Positions 37,573 to 44,900 of a stretch of DNA of 46,067 nt are shown here, in pieces (the first letter of the stretch is position 1; the number at the start of each line of letters is the position of its first letter). Position numbers and translations under genes: made by a program. Under the pieces are notes generated by a model. It worked only from the letters and a program-made list of their open reading frames with translations, made no database searches and had not been told where the DNA came from. Source of the DNA: a virus; IMG/VR virus record IMGVR_UViG_3300035670_000377, positions 1 to 46,067 of that record; one strand, given 5' to 3'.

Positions 37573-37614
37573 GTTAACCTTTTAACCGCTTGTATATATG
37601 GTTAAAAGGTTAAC
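37573..37614. promoter_or_regulatory. Palindromic operator-like site 2
   Basis: GTTAACCTTTTAACC (37573-37587), a 12-base loop GCTTGTATATAT, and GGTTAAAAGGTTAAC (37600-37614): a perfect 15-bp inverted repeat, 28 bp upstream of the exonuclease gene. No T run follows, so it is more likely an operator than a terminator. Confidence 0.8.
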
Positions 37615-37641
37615 AATTATTCAAACAACAATTCATAAAAA

Positions 37642-38166
37642 ATGTACGCAGTAATAGATATTGAAACAGGTGGGTTTGCTCACAAGAAAAATGCAATTTG
37701 CGAAGTTGCAGTTATAATTGCAGATAAAGACAAAAACGAAATTGATAGATACCATTGTTTTATTAAGCCATACAACGTCAAAAGAGAAGATGGCGAACTA
37801 TTTTCTTACAAAGAAGATGCAATGAACGTAAATGGTCTTACAATTGAATTTTTAGAGGAAAATGGTATTGATATAGAAATTGCTTTCAATGAAATAAAAA
37901 ACCTCATCATTAAGCATAGAGCAAGAAATTCTGTATGTCACAATAAAGATTTTGATATGAAATTTATGAATTTCTATTTCGATATGTTTTGTGAAAATTT
38001 CAGGTTCGAGAAAGAATTGTGTACAATGAAAGAAAGTAAGAATGTAGTTAAATTATCTTCATATAGTCTTGGATCATTGTGTGAACATTTTGAAATTGTA
38101 AACGAAAATGCCCATTCAGGAATTAGTGATGCAATTGCAACTTTGGAGTTATTCAAACGATTGTAA
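37642..38166 (+). CDS. DEDDh 3'-5' exonuclease (DnaQ/epsilon-like)
   Basis: 174 residues. The catalytic residues of the DEDDh group are visible: D6 and E8 in YAVIDIETGG, the H-N-K-D (D103) segment around 100-105, and H158 with D163 in NAHSGISDA. It would proofread or trim DNA or RNA 3' ends. The stop TAA overlaps the palindrome of the next promoter. Two palindromes lie upstream, so it is likely under specific control. Confidence 0.9.
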   Translation: MYAVIDIETGGFAHKKNAICEVAVIIADKDKNEIDRYHCFIKPYNVKREDGELFSYKEDAMNVNGLTIEFLEENGIDIEIAFNEIKNLIIKHRARNSVCHNKDFDMKFMNFYFDMFCENFRFEKELCTMKESKNVVKLSSYSLGSLCEHFEIVNENAHSGISDAIATLELFKRL

Positions 38167-38227
38167 ATAAATTTATTTATTTTTTTTACTAAATTTATTG
38201 TTAATTAAAATAAAATAATTAAATTTA
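38164..38227 (+). promoter_or_regulatory. Promoter with upstream palindrome (copy 2)
   Basis: The 16-bp palindrome TAAATAAATTTATTTA at 38164-38179, TTG at 38198-38200 and TAAATTTA at 38220-38227 (19-bp spacing). It is a near copy of the promoter at 28164 and drives the RlpA-like gene. Confidence 0.7.
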
Positions 38228-38253
38228 CAAGAAATTATTTTAATTTAATAACT

Positions 38254-38586: not shown

Positions 38587-38652
38587 TGAAAAGTAAGTGT
38601 CACAAATAATTAAAGTAAGTGTTTAAATGTGGTTATAAATAATAAATAAGTA

Positions 38653-39078
38653 ATGGTAAAAGTATATTTTGAAACAACAAAAAATTCATACGCAGAATTG
38701 TATGCAATTTTTAATAATGAAACAGATTACGTTTCATTGTTACCTGAAATTAAAAAAATTCAAAAAGAACGTGGTTTTGATATTTTAACAGAAGTAGTAA
38801 CAGAAGTTAGTCTTGAAGAATTTCAAGCGAAAATGCTTGTATTTTACGATGAATTAATAAAGTTTAAAACAATCGTAAATGAAAAGCAAATTGAAGATAT
38901 CATCAAGAAGTACGATGATATTCACGAAGAAGTAATTGATGTTTCAAATTACAGATTCAATGAAGATTGTGTTTGGTTCAAAAAGGATCAGATTGTTTCA
39001 ATAGTTGAGATATTGAAATATTTCAATTTAGATGGATTACAAGCATTAAAAGAAAGTAAAACAATAGTGTTATTATAA
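38653..39078 (+). CDS. Hypothetical protein, cassette-like unit
   Basis: 141 residues, not recognised. It starts with a beta strand (VKVYFETTKNSYAELYAIF) and continues as a mixed helical domain. It is bounded by GTTATAAATAATA (from 38632) and TTATAAC (39073-39079), a weak inverted repeat. The stop codon TAA is part of that TTATAAC box. Two AAGTAAGTGT copies 22 bp apart lie in the leader (38591, 38613). Confidence 0.65.
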   Translation: MVKVYFETTKNSYAELYAIFNNETDYVSLLPEIKKIQKERGFDILTEVVTEVSLEEFQAKMLVFYDELIKFKTIVNEKQIEDIIKKYDDIHEEVIDVSNYRFNEDCVWFKKDQIVSIVEILKYFNLDGLQALKESKTIVLL

Positions 39079-39436
39079 CGGTATCGGGCTAAGAGAAGTA
39101 AAAACAACAGAAGGGAAGGCTTCTGAATTTATAAACTAAAAAAAATTAATAAAATGGCTAAAAAAGCAAACAAGGTTGAAGAACCAAAAGAGGCAAAAAT
39201 TATTGCTACAAAAAAATGGACTATCGAAATGAATTTTTACGATGACGGTTCACAAAGATTAACGAGAACAAACGAAGGCTTTAATCCTTATGAATTGCTT
39301 GGACTATCCTTTAAATCACAAATGGAAATATTAGACCAAATTAGTGGCAAAATAAAGCCTACTGTTACTGAAAGGATTTGTAAGTAGTACACAGGCGGGC
39401 TGGGTTGTTTTTATTTCTTCTTAGCCCGTGTTATAA
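39073..39436. repeat. attC-like inverted repeat 1, enclosing a gene
   Basis: Left: TTATAAC (39073-39079), spacer GGTAT, arm CGGGCTAAGAGAAG (39085-39098). Right: arm CTTCTTAGCCCG (39417-39428), spacer T, GTTATAA (39430-39436). The arms pair with a 2-base bulge. The gene at 39154 lies between the arms. Confidence 0.75.
39154..39387 (+). CDS. Small hypothetical protein, cassette-like unit
   Basis: 77 residues. It has a lysine-rich start (KKANKVEEPKEAKI), a beta-like WTIEMNFYDDGSQRL, and a final helix (KSQMEILDQISGKIK). It lies between the two arms of inverted repeat 1. After its stop comes a stretch of 267 bp without a gene (39388-39654) that holds the outer arm and repeats 2 and 3. No family is recognised. 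Confidence 0.6.
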   Translation: MAKKANKVEEPKEAKIIATKKWTIEMNFYDDGSQRLTRTNEGFNPYELLGLSFKSQMEILDQISGKIKPTVTERICK

Positions 39437-39476
39437 GGCGAAGCGAACCGTTGGCTTTTCGCCAATGGCTTATAAC
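39430..39476. repeat. Inverted repeat 2 (GTTATAAG ... CTTATAAC)
   Basis: GTTATAAG (39430-39437) and CTTATAAC (39469-39476) are perfectly complementary. Inner complements are GGCGAA/TTCGCC and CCGTTGGC/GCCAATGG. It is richer in G+C than the rest of the genome and has no gene inside. It joins repeats 1 and 3 by shared boxes. Confidence 0.85.
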
Positions 39477-39563
39477 GTTTTGCGTATATGAGAAGTGGCA
39501 CTTGTAGAATGTTGAAATTAAGCACAAATGTTTCTGTGCCATTTCTGATATACGCTGTTAGCG
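39470..39563. repeat. attC-like inverted repeat 3
   Basis: TTATAAC (39470-39476), spacer GTTTT, arm GCGTATATGAGAAGTGGCAC (39482-39501), a 34-base loop, arm GTGCCATTTCTGATATACGC (39536-39555), spacer T, GTTAGCG. 18 of 20 arm positions pair. The length (about 94 bp), the AAC...GTT ends and the few mispairs are like an integron attC site. Confidence 0.8.
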
Positions 39564-40393
39564 GTAGTACGGATTTAAACCACAAATGCTCATTTGGAGA
39601 ACTGAACTTTTTTCTTTTCTTTTTTTTTGAGCGAGGGCAAAATAAAAATATAATATGGAAAAAATAATTTATGGTGATTGCTTAACCGAAATGAAGCAGA
39701 TAGAAAGTGGAAGTGTAGATTTAATTCTAACTGACCCACCCTACAATATAGCAAGGAAAAATAATTTTCACACTATGGGTAGAGCAGGAATTGACTTTGG
39801 AGAGTGGGATAAAGGATTTGATTTATTTTCATACATTGATGAGATACCAAGAATATTATCAAAAAATGGTAGTGTTATTATTTTTAATGATTGGAAAAAT
39901 GTCGGAGAAATCGCAAGGTATTGTGAAAGTGTAGGACTTGAAATTAAAGATATGCTTCGTTGGGTAAAATCAAATCCAATGCCAAGAAATAGAGATAGGA
40001 GATATATTACTGATTATGAAACTGCTATTTGGTGTGTAAATAAAAACGCTAAATGGATTTTTAACCGACAAGATGAAGCATATCAAAGACCTGAATTTAA
40101 AGGCTCATTGACACCTCAAAGTGAAAAGACAGAACATACAACACAAAAGCCACTTTGGTTAATGAAAGACATTTTAAAGATACATTCAAACGAAGGAGAT
40201 ACTGTACTTGATATGTTTGCAGGAAGCGGAACAACAGGTATTGCTTGTATGGAAATGAACCGAAACTTTATCATGATTGAGAAAGATGAAAATTATTTTT
40301 CCATTATTAAAAAAAGGGTGGAAGAAAAAAGAAAAGAAAAAGATTTAACGCAGAAAACTTTATTCGGAAATGGAATGTAGTATTACTGCTAAC
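39557..40393. repeat. Inverted repeat 4, enclosing the methyltransferase gene
   Basis: Left GTTAGCGGTAGTAC (39557-39570); right GTATTACTGCTAAC (40380-40393). 12 of 14 positions are Watson-Crick pairs and the two differences are G-U compatible. It encloses the methyltransferase gene exactly, from its leader to its stop codon. Confidence 0.75.
39655..40380 (+). CDS. Adenine-specific DNA methyltransferase (beta class, DpnA-like)
   Basis: 241 residues. Motif IV DPPY is at 27-30 (LTDPPYNIARKNN) and motif I FAGSGTTG at 188-195. This order marks a beta-class N6-adenine (or N4-cytosine) methyltransferase. The GEWDKGFD and HTTQKPLWLM stretches resemble phage and DpnIIB-type single-subunit enzymes. 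No restriction enzyme gene is adjacent, so it is an orphan methylase, probably protecting phage DNA. Its target cannot be told here. It lies inside inverted repeat 4, apparently as cargo of the cassette-like array. Confidence 0.92.
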   Translation: MEKIIYGDCLTEMKQIESGSVDLILTDPPYNIARKNNFHTMGRAGIDFGEWDKGFDLFSYIDEIPRILSKNGSVIIFNDWKNVGEIARYCESVGLEIKDMLRWVKSNPMPRNRDRRYITDYETAIWCVNKNAKWIFNRQDEAYQRPEFKGSLTPQSEKTEHTTQKPLWLMKDILKIHSNEGDTVLDMFAGSGTTGIACMEMNRNFIMIEKDENYFSIIKKRVEEKRKEKDLTQKTLFGNGM

Positions 40394-40688
40394 GTTTTCC
40401 AAATATATGCAGTACGAATTTAAAAACGATAATTATGAATAAACAACAAAACTTAGTGAAAAAATTTGCCGTTGGGGATGTATTAATTTCTGACATGTTT
40501 AAAAATTGTGAAAATGTACCTTACATATTTAAAACACATAAAGTTGATAATGACTTTGGGGTGGTTTATTATAGGTACAAAGGAAGGGAAGATACTATTG
40601 GTTTATCCTATGTGCGTAAGGCAAATTTTTTAGAACGTATTTTCGGGTGGCTACGAAACTAAGTATTGCATATATTTGGTGTTATAGC
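40388..40688. repeat. attC-like inverted repeat 5, enclosing a gene
   Basis: GCTAAC (40388-40393), spacer GTTTT, arm CCAAATATATGCA (40399-40411), gene, arm TGCATATATTTGG (40667-40679), spacer T, GTTATAGC (40681-40688). The arms are perfect over 13 bp. The spacers are the same as in repeats 3 and 7. Confidence 0.8.
40435..40662 (+). CDS. Small hypothetical protein, cassette-like unit
   Basis: 75 residues. It begins NKQQNLVKKFAVGDVLISDMF, suggesting a beta-barrel-like domain (VPYIFKTHKVD, VVYYRYKGREDTIG) with an aromatic C-terminus (FLERIFGWLRN). It lies between the arms of repeat 5. No family is recognised, but the VGDVL...Y pattern is common in small RNA- or DNA-binding barrels. Confidence 0.65.
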   Translation: MNKQQNLVKKFAVGDVLISDMFKNCENVPYIFKTHKVDNDFGVVYYRYKGREDTIGLSYVRKANFLERIFGWLRN

Positions 40689-40709
40689 ATCGTTTTAATG
40701 TGCTATAAC
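40681..40709. repeat. Inverted repeat 6 (GTTATAGCA ... TGCTATAAC)
   Basis: GTTATAGCA (40681-40689), an 11-base loop, TGCTATAAC (40701-40709): a perfect 9-bp stem. It joins repeat 5 to repeat 7 by sharing their end boxes. Confidence 0.85.
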
Positions 40710-40767
40710 GTTTTGCAACTATACGCACCTAAACAAAGTACGTAATTGCGTATAGATGCTGTTATGT
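40703..40767. repeat. attC-like inverted repeat 7
   Basis: CTATAAC (40703-40709), spacer GTTTT, arm GCAACTATACGCA (40715-40727), a 19-base loop, arm TGCGTATAGATGC (40747-40759), spacer T, GTTATG. 12 of 13 arm positions pair. No gene inside; total length about 65 bp, in the attC size range. Confidence 0.8.
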
Positions 40768-41134
40768 ATCAGTATGGCGAGTTAAACAAAAAAACTAAAA
40801 TAGAGTATAAATTTAAAAAGAAAAGAGCGATGGAAGAATTAGCACAAAGAAATTTAGCAATATTATCAAGTGATAAATCTAAACCAAATCAACTAATTGA
40901 ATTAGTAGAATTAAATCAAGAAATAGCTGTAAAATTCGGTAGATTTCTATTAAAAGAAGCTACTCATAAATGGGATAAAGATGTACTTCTTTGTTGGCAA
41001 GTGAAAAATAAAGAGTATGATACTTTACATTTATTTGAAAAATTTGTAAATGAAGTGTTATAAGTGCGTTGGCTTTTCTTTTCCATACGATGAATATTAA
41101 TCGAAGCAAGAAGTTAAGCCATATTGTACATAAC
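40761..41134. repeat. Inverted repeat 8, enclosing a gene
   Basis: Left GTTATGTATCAGTATGGC (40761-40778), right GCCATATTGTACATAAC (41118-41134). The arms pair except for one extra base and one G-U-compatible position. The left arm includes the first codons of the gene at 40764. Confidence 0.75.
40764..41063 (+). CDS. Hypothetical protein, cassette-like unit
   Basis: 99 residues from the ATG at 40764; the open frame extends to a TTG at 40746, inside repeat 7, and a downstream ATG at 40830 is also possible. The protein is helical and basic (KIEYKFKKKRAMEELAQRN; KPNQLIELVELNQEIAVKFG) with an aromatic C-terminal part. It lies inside inverted repeat 8. No family is recognised. Confidence 0.65.
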   Translation: MYQYGELNKKTKIEYKFKKKRAMEELAQRNLAILSSDKSKPNQLIELVELNQEIAVKFGRFLLKEATHKWDKDVLLCWQVKNKEYDTLHLFEKFVNEVL

Positions 41135-41165
41135 TAATGGCTAAACGAATAAATATATAGTATAA

Positions 41166-41264
41166 ATGAACACAATAACAATAACTTATTCTCTATATTG
41201 GGAGTTAAAAAACTATCCTGAATACAAGTTTACAGTCACAAATTTTAGGCGAAGAACTTATTGA
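41166..41264 (+). CDS. Very small ORF, doubtful
   Basis: An ATG at 41166 opens a 32-codon frame (Y-rich: SLYWELKNYPEYKFTVTN, then RRRTY) that ends just before the next gene. It could be a short real protein or the remnant of a longer one. The frame downstream (41269) is offset by one, and no slippage site would join them. It lies after the last cassette-like repeat. Confidence 0.3.
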   Translation: MNTITITYSLYWELKNYPEYKFTVTNFRRRTY

Positions 41265-42788: not shown

Positions 42789-43475
42789 ATGGAGAAAGAA
42801 AAAATGCAAGTTTTACCTGTACAGCAAATGAATGTGGCAGAAGTAAAAATCAACAAAGGTCAGTATGAAGGACTTCCAAAGAATCCAAGGGTAATCAAAA
42901 ATGACAAGTTTAGAAAGTTAAAAAATTCAATTCAGGAAGACCCTGAATTTATGGCTTTAAGACCAATCGTAGTGAACGAAGAAAACATTGTGCTTGGTGG
43001 TAACCAAAGATTGACGGCCTGTATTGATTTGGGAATAGAAGAAGTTCCCGTGATAAAAGTTTTGCATATGCCGATAGAAAAACAAAAGTCTTTCATAGTG
43101 AAAGATAATGTTTCGTTCGGAGATTGGGATTTAGACGAAATCTATTCGCAGGATTGGGATTTGAACTTGTTACAAAATTGGGGAGTAGAAGTTGAATTAA
43201 AGCAAGACGAAGAATTGACAGACGATGAAATCGAAAGTAAATACGATGATACGAATTGCGTGTACCCATTGATTCCAATTTATGATGAACAATACAATGC
43301 TGTAATCATAATTTGCGAAACGAAAACAGAACTTGCCAATGTACGTTCAAAGTTGAACATAACAACAAGAAGACAATCCTACAAGAACAAATTCATAGGA
43401 GAAACGAATATCATAACTGCAAAAGAATTATTCCAAAATGAAGAAAGTAATAGTAAGTCACAAGAAAGCAAGTAG
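42789..43475 (+). CDS. ParB-like nuclease-domain protein
   Basis: 228 residues from the ATG at 42789; an upstream ATG at 42717 and one earlier still overlap the zinc-ribbon gene. The ParB/Srx-fold motifs are visible: NPRVIKNDKFRKLKNSI, then the VVNEENIVLGGNQRLTA box (about 61-77), the GGNQR being the phosphate-binding loop. The rest is acidic and ends EESNSKSQESK. Phage ParB-like proteins often sit beside DNA-modification genes and may be nucleases or switch ATP/CTPases. Two TAGT-like genes follow; the first overlaps it by 38 bp. Confidence 0.8.
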   Translation: MEKEKMQVLPVQQMNVAEVKINKGQYEGLPKNPRVIKNDKFRKLKNSIQEDPEFMALRPIVVNEENIVLGGNQRLTACIDLGIEEVPVIKVLHMPIEKQKSFIVKDNVSFGDWDLDEIYSQDWDLNLLQNWGVEVELKQDEELTDDEIESKYDDTNCVYPLIPIYDEQYNAVIIICETKTELANVRSKLNITTRRQSYKNKFIGETNIITAKELFQNEESNSKSQESK

Positions 43476-44172
43476 GGTTACAACACCAAAGTACGTGAAA
43501 GATTGTGCAATCTGCGTACCTGAAAGCCAAAAGGAAGAATACGAAAAGTACAATGACGTTGAGATAATCACACACCCTGACAGCGTGGTTGGTTTAAGTC
43601 CGAAGAGACAATGGATCGTTGATAATATCGGAGATTGTTTTCAATTAGATGATGATATAATCGGAGTGCATCGTGTTTACACACCTGCAAAGTATCACAA
43701 AACGAAATTGGAAGCAAATGAAATATCTGACTACATAGATGATTTGTACCATTTATGTTTGGAGAATAAATTCTATTTGTTTGGATTCAATCGTACAAGC
43801 AGTCCGGTTGGATTTACAGGTGCAGAACCAATTACTTTCAACAAATACATAACAGGTGGTGCATTTGGATTAATAAAGACCGATGAATTATTCTTTCCTG
43901 ATTATCCTACATTCGTAGGGGAAGATTATTGGATAAGTGCATTGAACGCTCATTTTCATAGACGTTCATTCATTGACCAAAGAATTGCTTTTTCATTTGC
44001 AAACACAGAAGCAAACACAGGTGGAGTTGCTGATTACAGGACCGAACAAAAAAGAAAAAAAACGTACTTGTATTTGAAGAAACATTTTGGGAATGCTATC
44101 ATACCGAAGAAAGTAACACCTTTGAAGAAAAGTATAATGAAATACGAAAAGACCTTGAAAATTCCATACTAA
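43438..44172 (+). CDS. TAGT-like GT-A glycosyltransferase, copy 1
   Basis: 244 residues. The start (KVIVSHKKASRVTTPKYV), a PESQKEEYEKY segment, HPDSVVGLSPKRQWIVDN and the DDD motif at residues 71-73 fit the TET-associated glycosyltransferase family of phages. These enzymes are thought to glycosylate 5-hydroxymethyl-pyrimidines in DNA. A later GEDYW could be the catalytic acid segment. The family assignment is by motif. The partner that would make the hydroxymethyl base is not visible in this window, so the substrate is open. Confidence 0.7.
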   Translation: MKKVIVSHKKASRVTTPKYVKDCAICVPESQKEEYEKYNDVEIITHPDSVVGLSPKRQWIVDNIGDCFQLDDDIIGVHRVYTPAKYHKTKLEANEISDYIDDLYHLCLENKFYLFGFNRTSSPVGFTGAEPITFNKYITGGAFGLIKTDELFFPDYPTFVGEDYWISALNAHFHRRSFIDQRIAFSFANTEANTGGVADYRTEQKRKKTYLYLKKHFGNAIIPKKVTPLKKSIMKYEKTLKIPY

Positions 44173-44900
44173 TGAAGATAGTTATTCCAAGCCACAAGAG
44201 GGCAAAAGACGTAAGTACCACAAAGGTTGTTTCAAACGCTTCGATATGTATTCCTGAAAGCCAAAGAGAGGAATACGAAAAATACAACGATTGTGAATTG
44301 ATATGCCACCCTGACAATGTAATTGGTATTGCACCAAAGAGACAATGGATCCTTGAAAACGTAGGTGATGTTTTTATGCTTGACGATGATATTAAGGCAT
44401 TGAGAAGAACGTACCTTGCACCAAAACAGAAAAAGGATAAATTCTCTGCCGATGATGTTTATAATTTGTTACAGGACACGTATCACAATCTGAAAGAACA
44501 AACCGACATAAAATTGTTTGGATTTGCAAAAAGTCCAAGTCCACTTCATTTCGATGTTTCAAAACCAATCTTTATGAATGGCTTCATTCAAGGTTGTGCA
44601 TTGGGAGTAATCAAAGACGAAAACATATTTTTCCCAAAGATTGAAACAATGACAGGGGAAGACGAATGGATTGCTTTAATAAATGCTCACTTCAATCGTA
44701 AGATGTGGATAGACAAAAGATTTTTCTTTGAGTTCAATACCAAGAACACGAATATCGGAGGGTGTGAAGACATAAGAAACAGATTTAGTTCAAAAGAATC
44801 GTATTTCAGATTAAAGAAACATTTCGGTAATGCAGTAGTGTTCGATAAAATGAAAAGCACTGAAAATCAGCCTAAATGGAGATTAAAAATACCTTTTTAG
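44172..44900 (+). CDS. TAGT-like GT-A glycosyltransferase, copy 2
   Basis: 242 residues, clearly a tandem paralogue of the preceding gene: the same layout with PSHKRAKDV, PESQREEYEKYND, HPDNVIGIAPKRQWIL and the DDD motif at the same positions (71-73), then MTGEDEW. The stop of copy 1 overlaps its start by a few bases. The divergence between the copies suggests different acceptors or two sugar additions. Both would act on phage DNA or its modified nucleotides. Confidence 0.7.
   Translation: MKIVIPSHKRAKDVSTTKVVSNASICIPESQREEYEKYNDCELICHPDNVIGIAPKRQWILENVGDVFMLDDDIKALRRTYLAPKQKKDKFSADDVYNLLQDTYHNLKEQTDIKLFGFAKSPSPLHFDVSKPIFMNGFIQGCALGVIKDENIFFPKIETMTGEDEWIALINAHFNRKMWIDKRFFFEFNTKNTNIGGCEDIRNRFSSKESYFRLKKHFGNAVVFDKMKSTENQPKWRLKIPF

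Follow-up and report, generated by a model that had tools for sequence, protein, structure and literature searches.

What kind of element is the chain of box-sharing inverted repeats at positions 39076-41134 of the stretch of virus DNA analysed here, and by what means could the small genes in it be moved? The stretch (the window; 46,067 nucleotides, 46 kb) is the IMG/VR virus record IMGVR_UViG_3300035670_000377; its terminase is 59% identical to that of Flavobacterium phage 1/32, and the phage probably infects flavobacteria. We found that the chain is an integrase-less cassette array, that is, a cluster of attC sites lacking an integron integrase (CALIN), made up of four one-gene cassettes followed by a TAAC half-site at 41131. 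With high probability these are four mobile cassettes (39076-41130) of a flavobacterial-type phage, which belong to an integron-like system distinct from the classical one.

The array in the window

The chain is an alternation of inverted repeats of the forms TAAC...GTTA (AAC units) and GTTA...TAAC (GTT units). An earlier note, made from the sequence alone, had listed eight contiguous units that share their end boxes, and all eight are present where it placed them, with local alignment scores for arm complementarity (2 per match) of 40 (39073-39436), 16 (39430-39476), 30 (39470-39563), 18 (39557-40393), 29 (40388-40688), 18 (40681-40709), 21 (40703-40767) and 24 (40761-41134). A blind detector, whose only input was the alternation of the two forms, recovered the array as two chains with scores of 31.6 and 22.5, well above the best score (12.0) and the 99th percentile (8.2) of 1000 dinucleotide-preserving shuffles of 38600-41200, a control of the kind that the note had called for. 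As single-stranded DNA, the short hairpins of the window fold 2.4-4.8 standard deviations better than shuffles. An additional unit that the note suspected around the gene at 38653 comes down to about seven complementary bases and is unsupported.

A blastn search of named plasmids and phages with the array as query matched methyltransferase genes and nothing else. Comparison with related phages for gain or loss of units yielded one distant relative (L123), which has no array and is too diverged to inform.

Four one-gene cassettes

Of 27 large AAC units from the window and its relatives, several of them gene-bearing in the loop, 15 stand before a GTT unit of 29-51 nucleotides, as against 5 of 316 ordinary AAC units (p 4e-15). 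Because of this excess, an AAC unit with its gene and the mini GTT unit behind it are read as one cassette, and the window therefore as four one-gene cassettes. Genes do lie inside AAC...GTT units, as the earlier note had observed. The GTT...AAC repeats, for their part, can be explained without a second type of attC, as they may be the two ends of a single cassette body that would pair in an excised circle. With four AAC-type sites, albeit of a variant type, and no array-linked integrase in the 46-kb record, the array has what defines a CALIN (two or more attC-type sites that lack a neighbouring integrase). Its parts are as follows.

39076-39472, + strand: cassette K1, an AAC-type unit (39076-39433) whose loop holds a gene, followed by a gene-less GTT unit (39430-39476); arms: TAAC plus a 5-nucleotide spacer, GGGCTAAG.AGAAGTAAAAAC / GGGCTAAGAAGAAATAAAAAC; a large AAC unit followed by a mini GTT unit, as in the 15 of 27 cases above
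39154-39387, + strand: open reading frame of K1, 77 amino acids, no Pfam match
39473-40389, + strand: cassette K2, an attC-like hairpin (39473-39560) plus a GTT body (39557-40393) with a methyltransferase gene; hairpin TAACGTTTTGCG...CGCTGTTA, 94% identical over 88 nucleotides to a hairpin in L006/L297, a contig with a compact integrase; body arms GTTAGCGGTAGTAC / GTTAGCAGTAATAC, with a G/A mismatch at position 11
39655-40380, + strand: DNA methyltransferase gene of K2, N6_N4_Mtase (PF01555; Pfam 150 bits, cut-off 26.7)
40390-40705, + strand: cassette K3, an AAC-type unit (40390-40684) whose loop holds a gene, followed by a mini GTT unit (40681-40709); arms CCAAATATATGCAGTAC / CCAAATATATGCAATAC; mini unit GTTATAGCATCGTTTTAATGTGCTATAAC, identical in L115
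40435-40662, + strand: open reading frame of K3, 75 amino acids, no Pfam match
40706-41130, + strand: cassette K4, an attC-like hairpin (40706-40764; 58 of 59 nucleotides identical to L112) plus a GTT body (40761-41134), whose ends are 92% identical to those in L007 and L009 and whose centre is different
40830-41063, + strand: open reading frame of K4, 77 amino acids from the ATG at 40830 (listed from a TTG at 40746), no Pfam match
41131-41152, + strand: terminal TAAC half-site TAACTAATGGCTAAACGAATAA, a box followed by T, with no hairpin partner

The loop TCGTTTTAATG (40690-40700 in the window) recurs in short hairpins elsewhere, in 22 of 41 short AAC units and 6 of 17 mini GTT units, on unrelated stems.

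Related arrays and their site grammar

A search of IMG/VR with the pattern TAACGTTTTGC N30-60 GCTGTTA gave at least 120 viral-contig stretches. The inner arms were more complementary than shuffles in 110 of 127 matches among those listed, and differed between families. The same pattern was found in metagenome-assembled genomes (MAGs) of Bacteroidota and, with another family of arms, in anaerobic methanotrophic (ANME)-type archaea and other MAGs; many matches on genome contigs, whose arms were unpaired, were rejected as chance. Chains were present in 101 of the 241 sequences then collected. L006 has 30 consecutive units, and the overlapping L297 has 39. The lengths of AAC units group around 48, 88 and 125 nucleotides, those of GTT units at 100-900.

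The two ends of the same GTT body (n = 357) pair with a frequency of 0.85-1.00 at positions 1-9, weakly at position 10 and again at 0.78-0.84 at positions 12-15, whereas position 11 is nearly always mismatched (pairing 0.06), with G on the left in 76% and A on the reversed right in 98%; this is a G.T wobble on the strand read and C.A on the opposite strand. When ends were swapped between bodies, pairing outside the fixed GTTA fell to 0.25-0.47. Thus, the arms of these related arrays are unrelated from unit to unit and self-complementary within each, as the earlier note had said of the window. AAC hairpins have TAAC and a 5-nucleotide spacer on one side and a spacer of 1-2 nucleotides and GTTA on the other; position 14 of the arm is a fixed G/A mismatch. 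These are imperfect inverted repeats kept in structure and not in sequence, as attC sites are. The R' box consensus GTTRRRY is not followed: GTTA is kept, and position 5 is T in 57% of the 357 GTT units. A classical Vibrio cassette array, which the detector missed on account of its bulged attC stems and for which a separate pattern was used, served as a control and paired at positions 1-10 only (0.00-0.12 at positions 12-15).

The first 15-75 nucleotides of GTT units (their 5' end) are shared by 184 pairs of cassette bodies, only 13 of which have a common centre, and this shared leader in front of different genes is perhaps a promoter. In a Methanoperedenaceae archaeon (L135, 4346-4419), a hairpin of the family pattern stands directly after a DNA methyltransferase gene and a second gene that looks like the restriction partner of that methyltransferase.

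Integrases beside the arrays

Tyrosine recombinases in hairpin-bearing genomes fit the two ends of the integron-integrase model, leave its central part unmatched and score below the cut-off of TIGR02249. When they were aligned with Vibrio IntI, the insertion that contains the I2 helix was absent from the array-linked enzymes, whose motif spacing is 59-65 amino acids versus 105-107 in IntI; among 78 classified viral relatives, a single one has the I2 insertion. Integrase loci were chosen by protein alignment alone, blind to hairpins, which gave 80 viral-contig loci among the matches listed. A compact enzyme of about 268 amino acids is encoded in 57 of the 80. An array lies within 3 kb upstream of 35 of the 44 testable compact integrases, mostly within 400 bp (0 of 80 in the shuffled control), and the nearby hairpins are oriented one way 119:2. 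Four of these contigs had been found separately by their hairpins (L297 = L006, L289 = L011, L325 = L096 and L335 = L101). Arrays of 11-39 units adjoin I2-less integrases.

A second, longer type sits in host chromosomes. In one array-linked member, a HARP domain at the N terminus (PF07443) scores 26.4 bits, above the Pfam cut-off of 25, and the archaeal relative combines a weak HARP match with a helix-turn-helix (loci L263, 7543-8565, and L244, 1195-2337). The HARP domain is known from SMARCAL1. In nine HARP-type loci, all 11 chains lie on the 3' side of the integrase gene and the hairpins are oriented 30:0. Once the array is oriented, the integrase is found at the same end in both types, and the polarity of the hairpins relative to the genes differs between the two. 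The predicted structure of the compact enzyme (predicted local distance difference test score, pLDDT, 87) has an integron integrase, 2a3v, as its best solved match. In the tree, the compact and HARP types group with IntI and away from XerC/D (100/100), in an order relative to IntI that the tree does not fix.

A putative attI-like site and the proposed cassette joint

Compact integrases are preceded by a conserved, putative attI-like motif, TAACTATTATATATA. The last TAAC of the body adjoining a compact integrase is followed by TATTATATATA, under strict matching, at 12 of 15 sites, as against 3 of 146 inner boxes; the base after TAAC is T at 13 of the 15 attI-like sites and G at 141 of the 146 inner boxes. 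The mini GTT unit was also considered as the attI site and rejected, as it lies upstream of only 4 of 48 compact integrases. By analogy with these relatives, the half-site 41131-41152 of the window is proposed as a candidate attI-like end of the array.

Of 320 starts of homology blocks between arrays, 182 fall on a TAAC box, where 3.5% would do so by chance; two blocks of a whole cassette span TAAC to TAAC, and the same cassette body is found with different neighbours on different contigs. The simplest rule for these alignments would place the cassette joint at the TAAC/GTTA box next to the 5-nucleotide spacer. An attempt to draw the boundary from co-moving neighbours alone was dropped, as there were too few pairs.

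Resistance genes on plasmids

Detected units on Empedobacter brevis plasmids enclose arr and lnu(H), and hairpins of the family stand next to tet(X), mph(G) and an ABC-F gene. The units and hairpins concerned are:

L452 (Empedobacter brevis plasmid NZ_CP043637), 9851-12212 and 2930-3119: resistance-gene units and hairpins
L451, 515-701 and 9176-9363: resistance-gene units and hairpins

The lnu(H) body has the 15-nucleotide ends with the mismatch at position 11. Three copies of tet(X) have their DNA in common starting exactly at the GTTA box, and in front of it each has a different hairpin; in hairpin orientation, the point of divergence is the box beside the 5-nucleotide spacer. It is thus in the relatives (homology blocks, shared bodies and the tet(X) junctions) that cassettes are seen to move as units. 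The best plasmid relatives of the compact integrase are the recombinases adjoining tet(X3) in Acinetobacter, and on plasmid pJAT2044 (L450, 2967-3632) a truncated tyrosine recombinase gene of the same I2-less group lies beside tet(X3).

Comparison with known systems

Virulent phages were reported in 2023 to carry integrase-less attC clusters, one of them being Polaribacter phage P12002L, which has methyltransferases (PMC9892861). This phage (NC_028924) resembles the window in being a flavobacterial virulent phage with methyltransferase-type genes between long GTT...AAC repeats and hairpins with the TCGTTTTAATG loop, and we found in its sequence extended body ends like those of the family. It is a different phage with other genes, and the available text of PMC9892861 gives neither extended arms nor a linked integrase type. 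As in classical integrons and CALINs, there are AAC...GTT hairpin cassettes, mostly of a single gene, a putative attI-like site by the integrase gene, and integrase-less arrays borne by phages. In contrast, the integrase of the present system lacks I2, the ends pair over 15 nucleotides with a fixed mismatch at position 11 instead of over about 7-10, the unpaired spacers are of 5 and 1-2 nucleotides, the polarity differs with the type of integrase and some genes lie in the hairpin loop. This difference in site grammar and linked integrases escaped the earlier note. Archaeal integrons (PMC9668308) likewise occur outside the usual hosts, and the hairpin pattern of the window is also found in archaeal MAGs; however, archaeal IntIs are said to retain the IntI-specific domain, unlike the archaeal relative here (L279). 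As far as the surveyed literature goes (subscription journals and preprints lie outside it, and papers were covered in part), phage CALINs are already known and the extended site grammar, I2-less integrases by such arrays and their attI-like site are undescribed and new.

Weighing the explanations

Could this be an ordinary CALIN acquired by the phage, its classical attC sites moved by an I2-containing IntI and its oddities no more than minor attC diversity? Hairpins, AAC/GTT boxes, an attI-like site and an integrase are indeed the integron plan. Moreover, two predicted attC sites of P12002L, which has the same architecture, were tried in the laboratory, and IntI1 recombined one of them, at G^TT; strand-selective recombination in vivo is published for one attC site of this phage, with IntI1 only (PMC9892861). 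Nevertheless, the Vibrio control is unpaired where these bodies pair (positions 12-15), the box departs from GTTRRRY through its T at position 5, and the adjoining integrases, with one exception among the classified viral relatives, have no I2, so that we regard this explanation as quite unlikely. The lack of I2 could instead point to Xer/dif-like core sites used as double-stranded DNA, with the repeats as binding arms, since gain of the I2 helix is viewed as the step that enabled recombinases to act on folded single strands (PMC7790495, PMC4792948); moreover, arms begin at the box in both types of unit, and in Xer/dif (pdif) systems, too, a tyrosine recombinase moves gene modules between short boxes. 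Duplex sites would need a conserved sequence, however, and here the arms vary freely while pairing within each unit stays; pdif sites have no covarying hairpins. They are 28-bp conserved duplexes. Conserved mismatches at fixed positions are readily understood in a folded strand, and the proposed attI and the hairpins differ as attI and attC do. Overall, we consider the duplex explanation unlikely.

If the repeats were terminators of transcription, or RNA elements placed between the small genes of the phage, this would account for stems that lie between genes, some of which fold well. However, no Rfam family reaches the threshold for the repeats, no T-run stands behind the stems, and termination has no use for arms that enclose whole genes or for boxes that are shared; with related arrays tied to integrases, this origin is very improbable. 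Nested miniature transposons with terminal inverted repeats, which would explain units so bounded and shared, target-like boxes, are an equally remote prospect: the arms are unrelated between units and therefore offer a transposase no sequence to recognize, homology blocks stop right at the boxes, and the steady neighbours of related arrays are tyrosine recombinases.

A distinct integron-like system remains the preferred explanation, and the covarying arms, the cassettes common to contigs with different neighbours and the adjoining integrases agree with the attC-like mobile gene-cassette array that the earlier note had proposed. The recombination of a P12002L site by IntI1 counts in its favour as well. 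Several points weigh against it. A profile search found no array-linked integrase type in the 46-kb record, in line with the note's statement that the window has no integron integrase. The arm of the methyltransferase unit measures only 14 nucleotides, which is why the detector splits the chain there. The attI-like status of the window's half-site is putative. Because few whole cassettes are found in two contexts, the boundary rule draws on few cases, and in one of these, the L032/L297 pair, the match is closer for the 3' hairpin than for the 5' hairpin. Many metagenome contigs with compact or HARP-type integrases may be misassigned as to viral or host origin, and frequencies from IMG/VR are those of the samples and not totals.

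Elsewhere in the window, outside the cassette array, there are strong short inverted repeats at 37573-38252, GTTAACCTTTTAACC and GTTAATTAAAAT, perhaps a terminator and an AT-rich hairpin, and two adjacent related open reading frames of 244 and 242 amino acids at 43438-44900 (starting MKKVIVSHKKA and MKIVIPSHKRA), which look like a tandem duplication.

A model of cassette movement

In the model that we propose, a cassette consists of one AAC-type unit, one GTT-type unit and a single gene, which mostly lies in the GTT unit and in some cassettes in the AAC unit. Folded on one DNA strand, the AAC unit would form a hairpin recognized by its shape by an I2-less tyrosine recombinase, which would probably cut TAA^C at the box beside the 5-nucleotide spacer. 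The body ends lie far apart in the array and would meet at one hairpin only in the excised circle, where they would flank the hairpin and lengthen its stem; this may be why they are complementary, and why pairing is kept within and not between cassettes. Insertion may take place beside the attI-like TAAC half-site. The enzyme would be supplied in trans, from the host or another element; as the record has no array-linked integrase, the phage would depend on a host-borne one.

Implications

We lean slightly towards a broader view, in which these arrays represent a widespread second class of integrons, found in Bacteroidota, their phages and some archaea, with I2-less integrases, longer stems with two fixed mismatches and tet(X) and other resistance genes as cassettes. 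Standard integron searches would miss such a class because they require the IntI-specific domain, and the arrays of 11-39 units beside integrases contrast with the rarity reported for complete integrons in Bacteroidota (PMC9024848). If hairpin arrays stand steadily by I2-less relatives of IntI, the view of I2 as the enabling step becomes directly testable. The Empedobacter plasmid arrays suggest a concrete route by which tet(X) could be packaged for transfer, and cassettes of the same kind are borne by phages.

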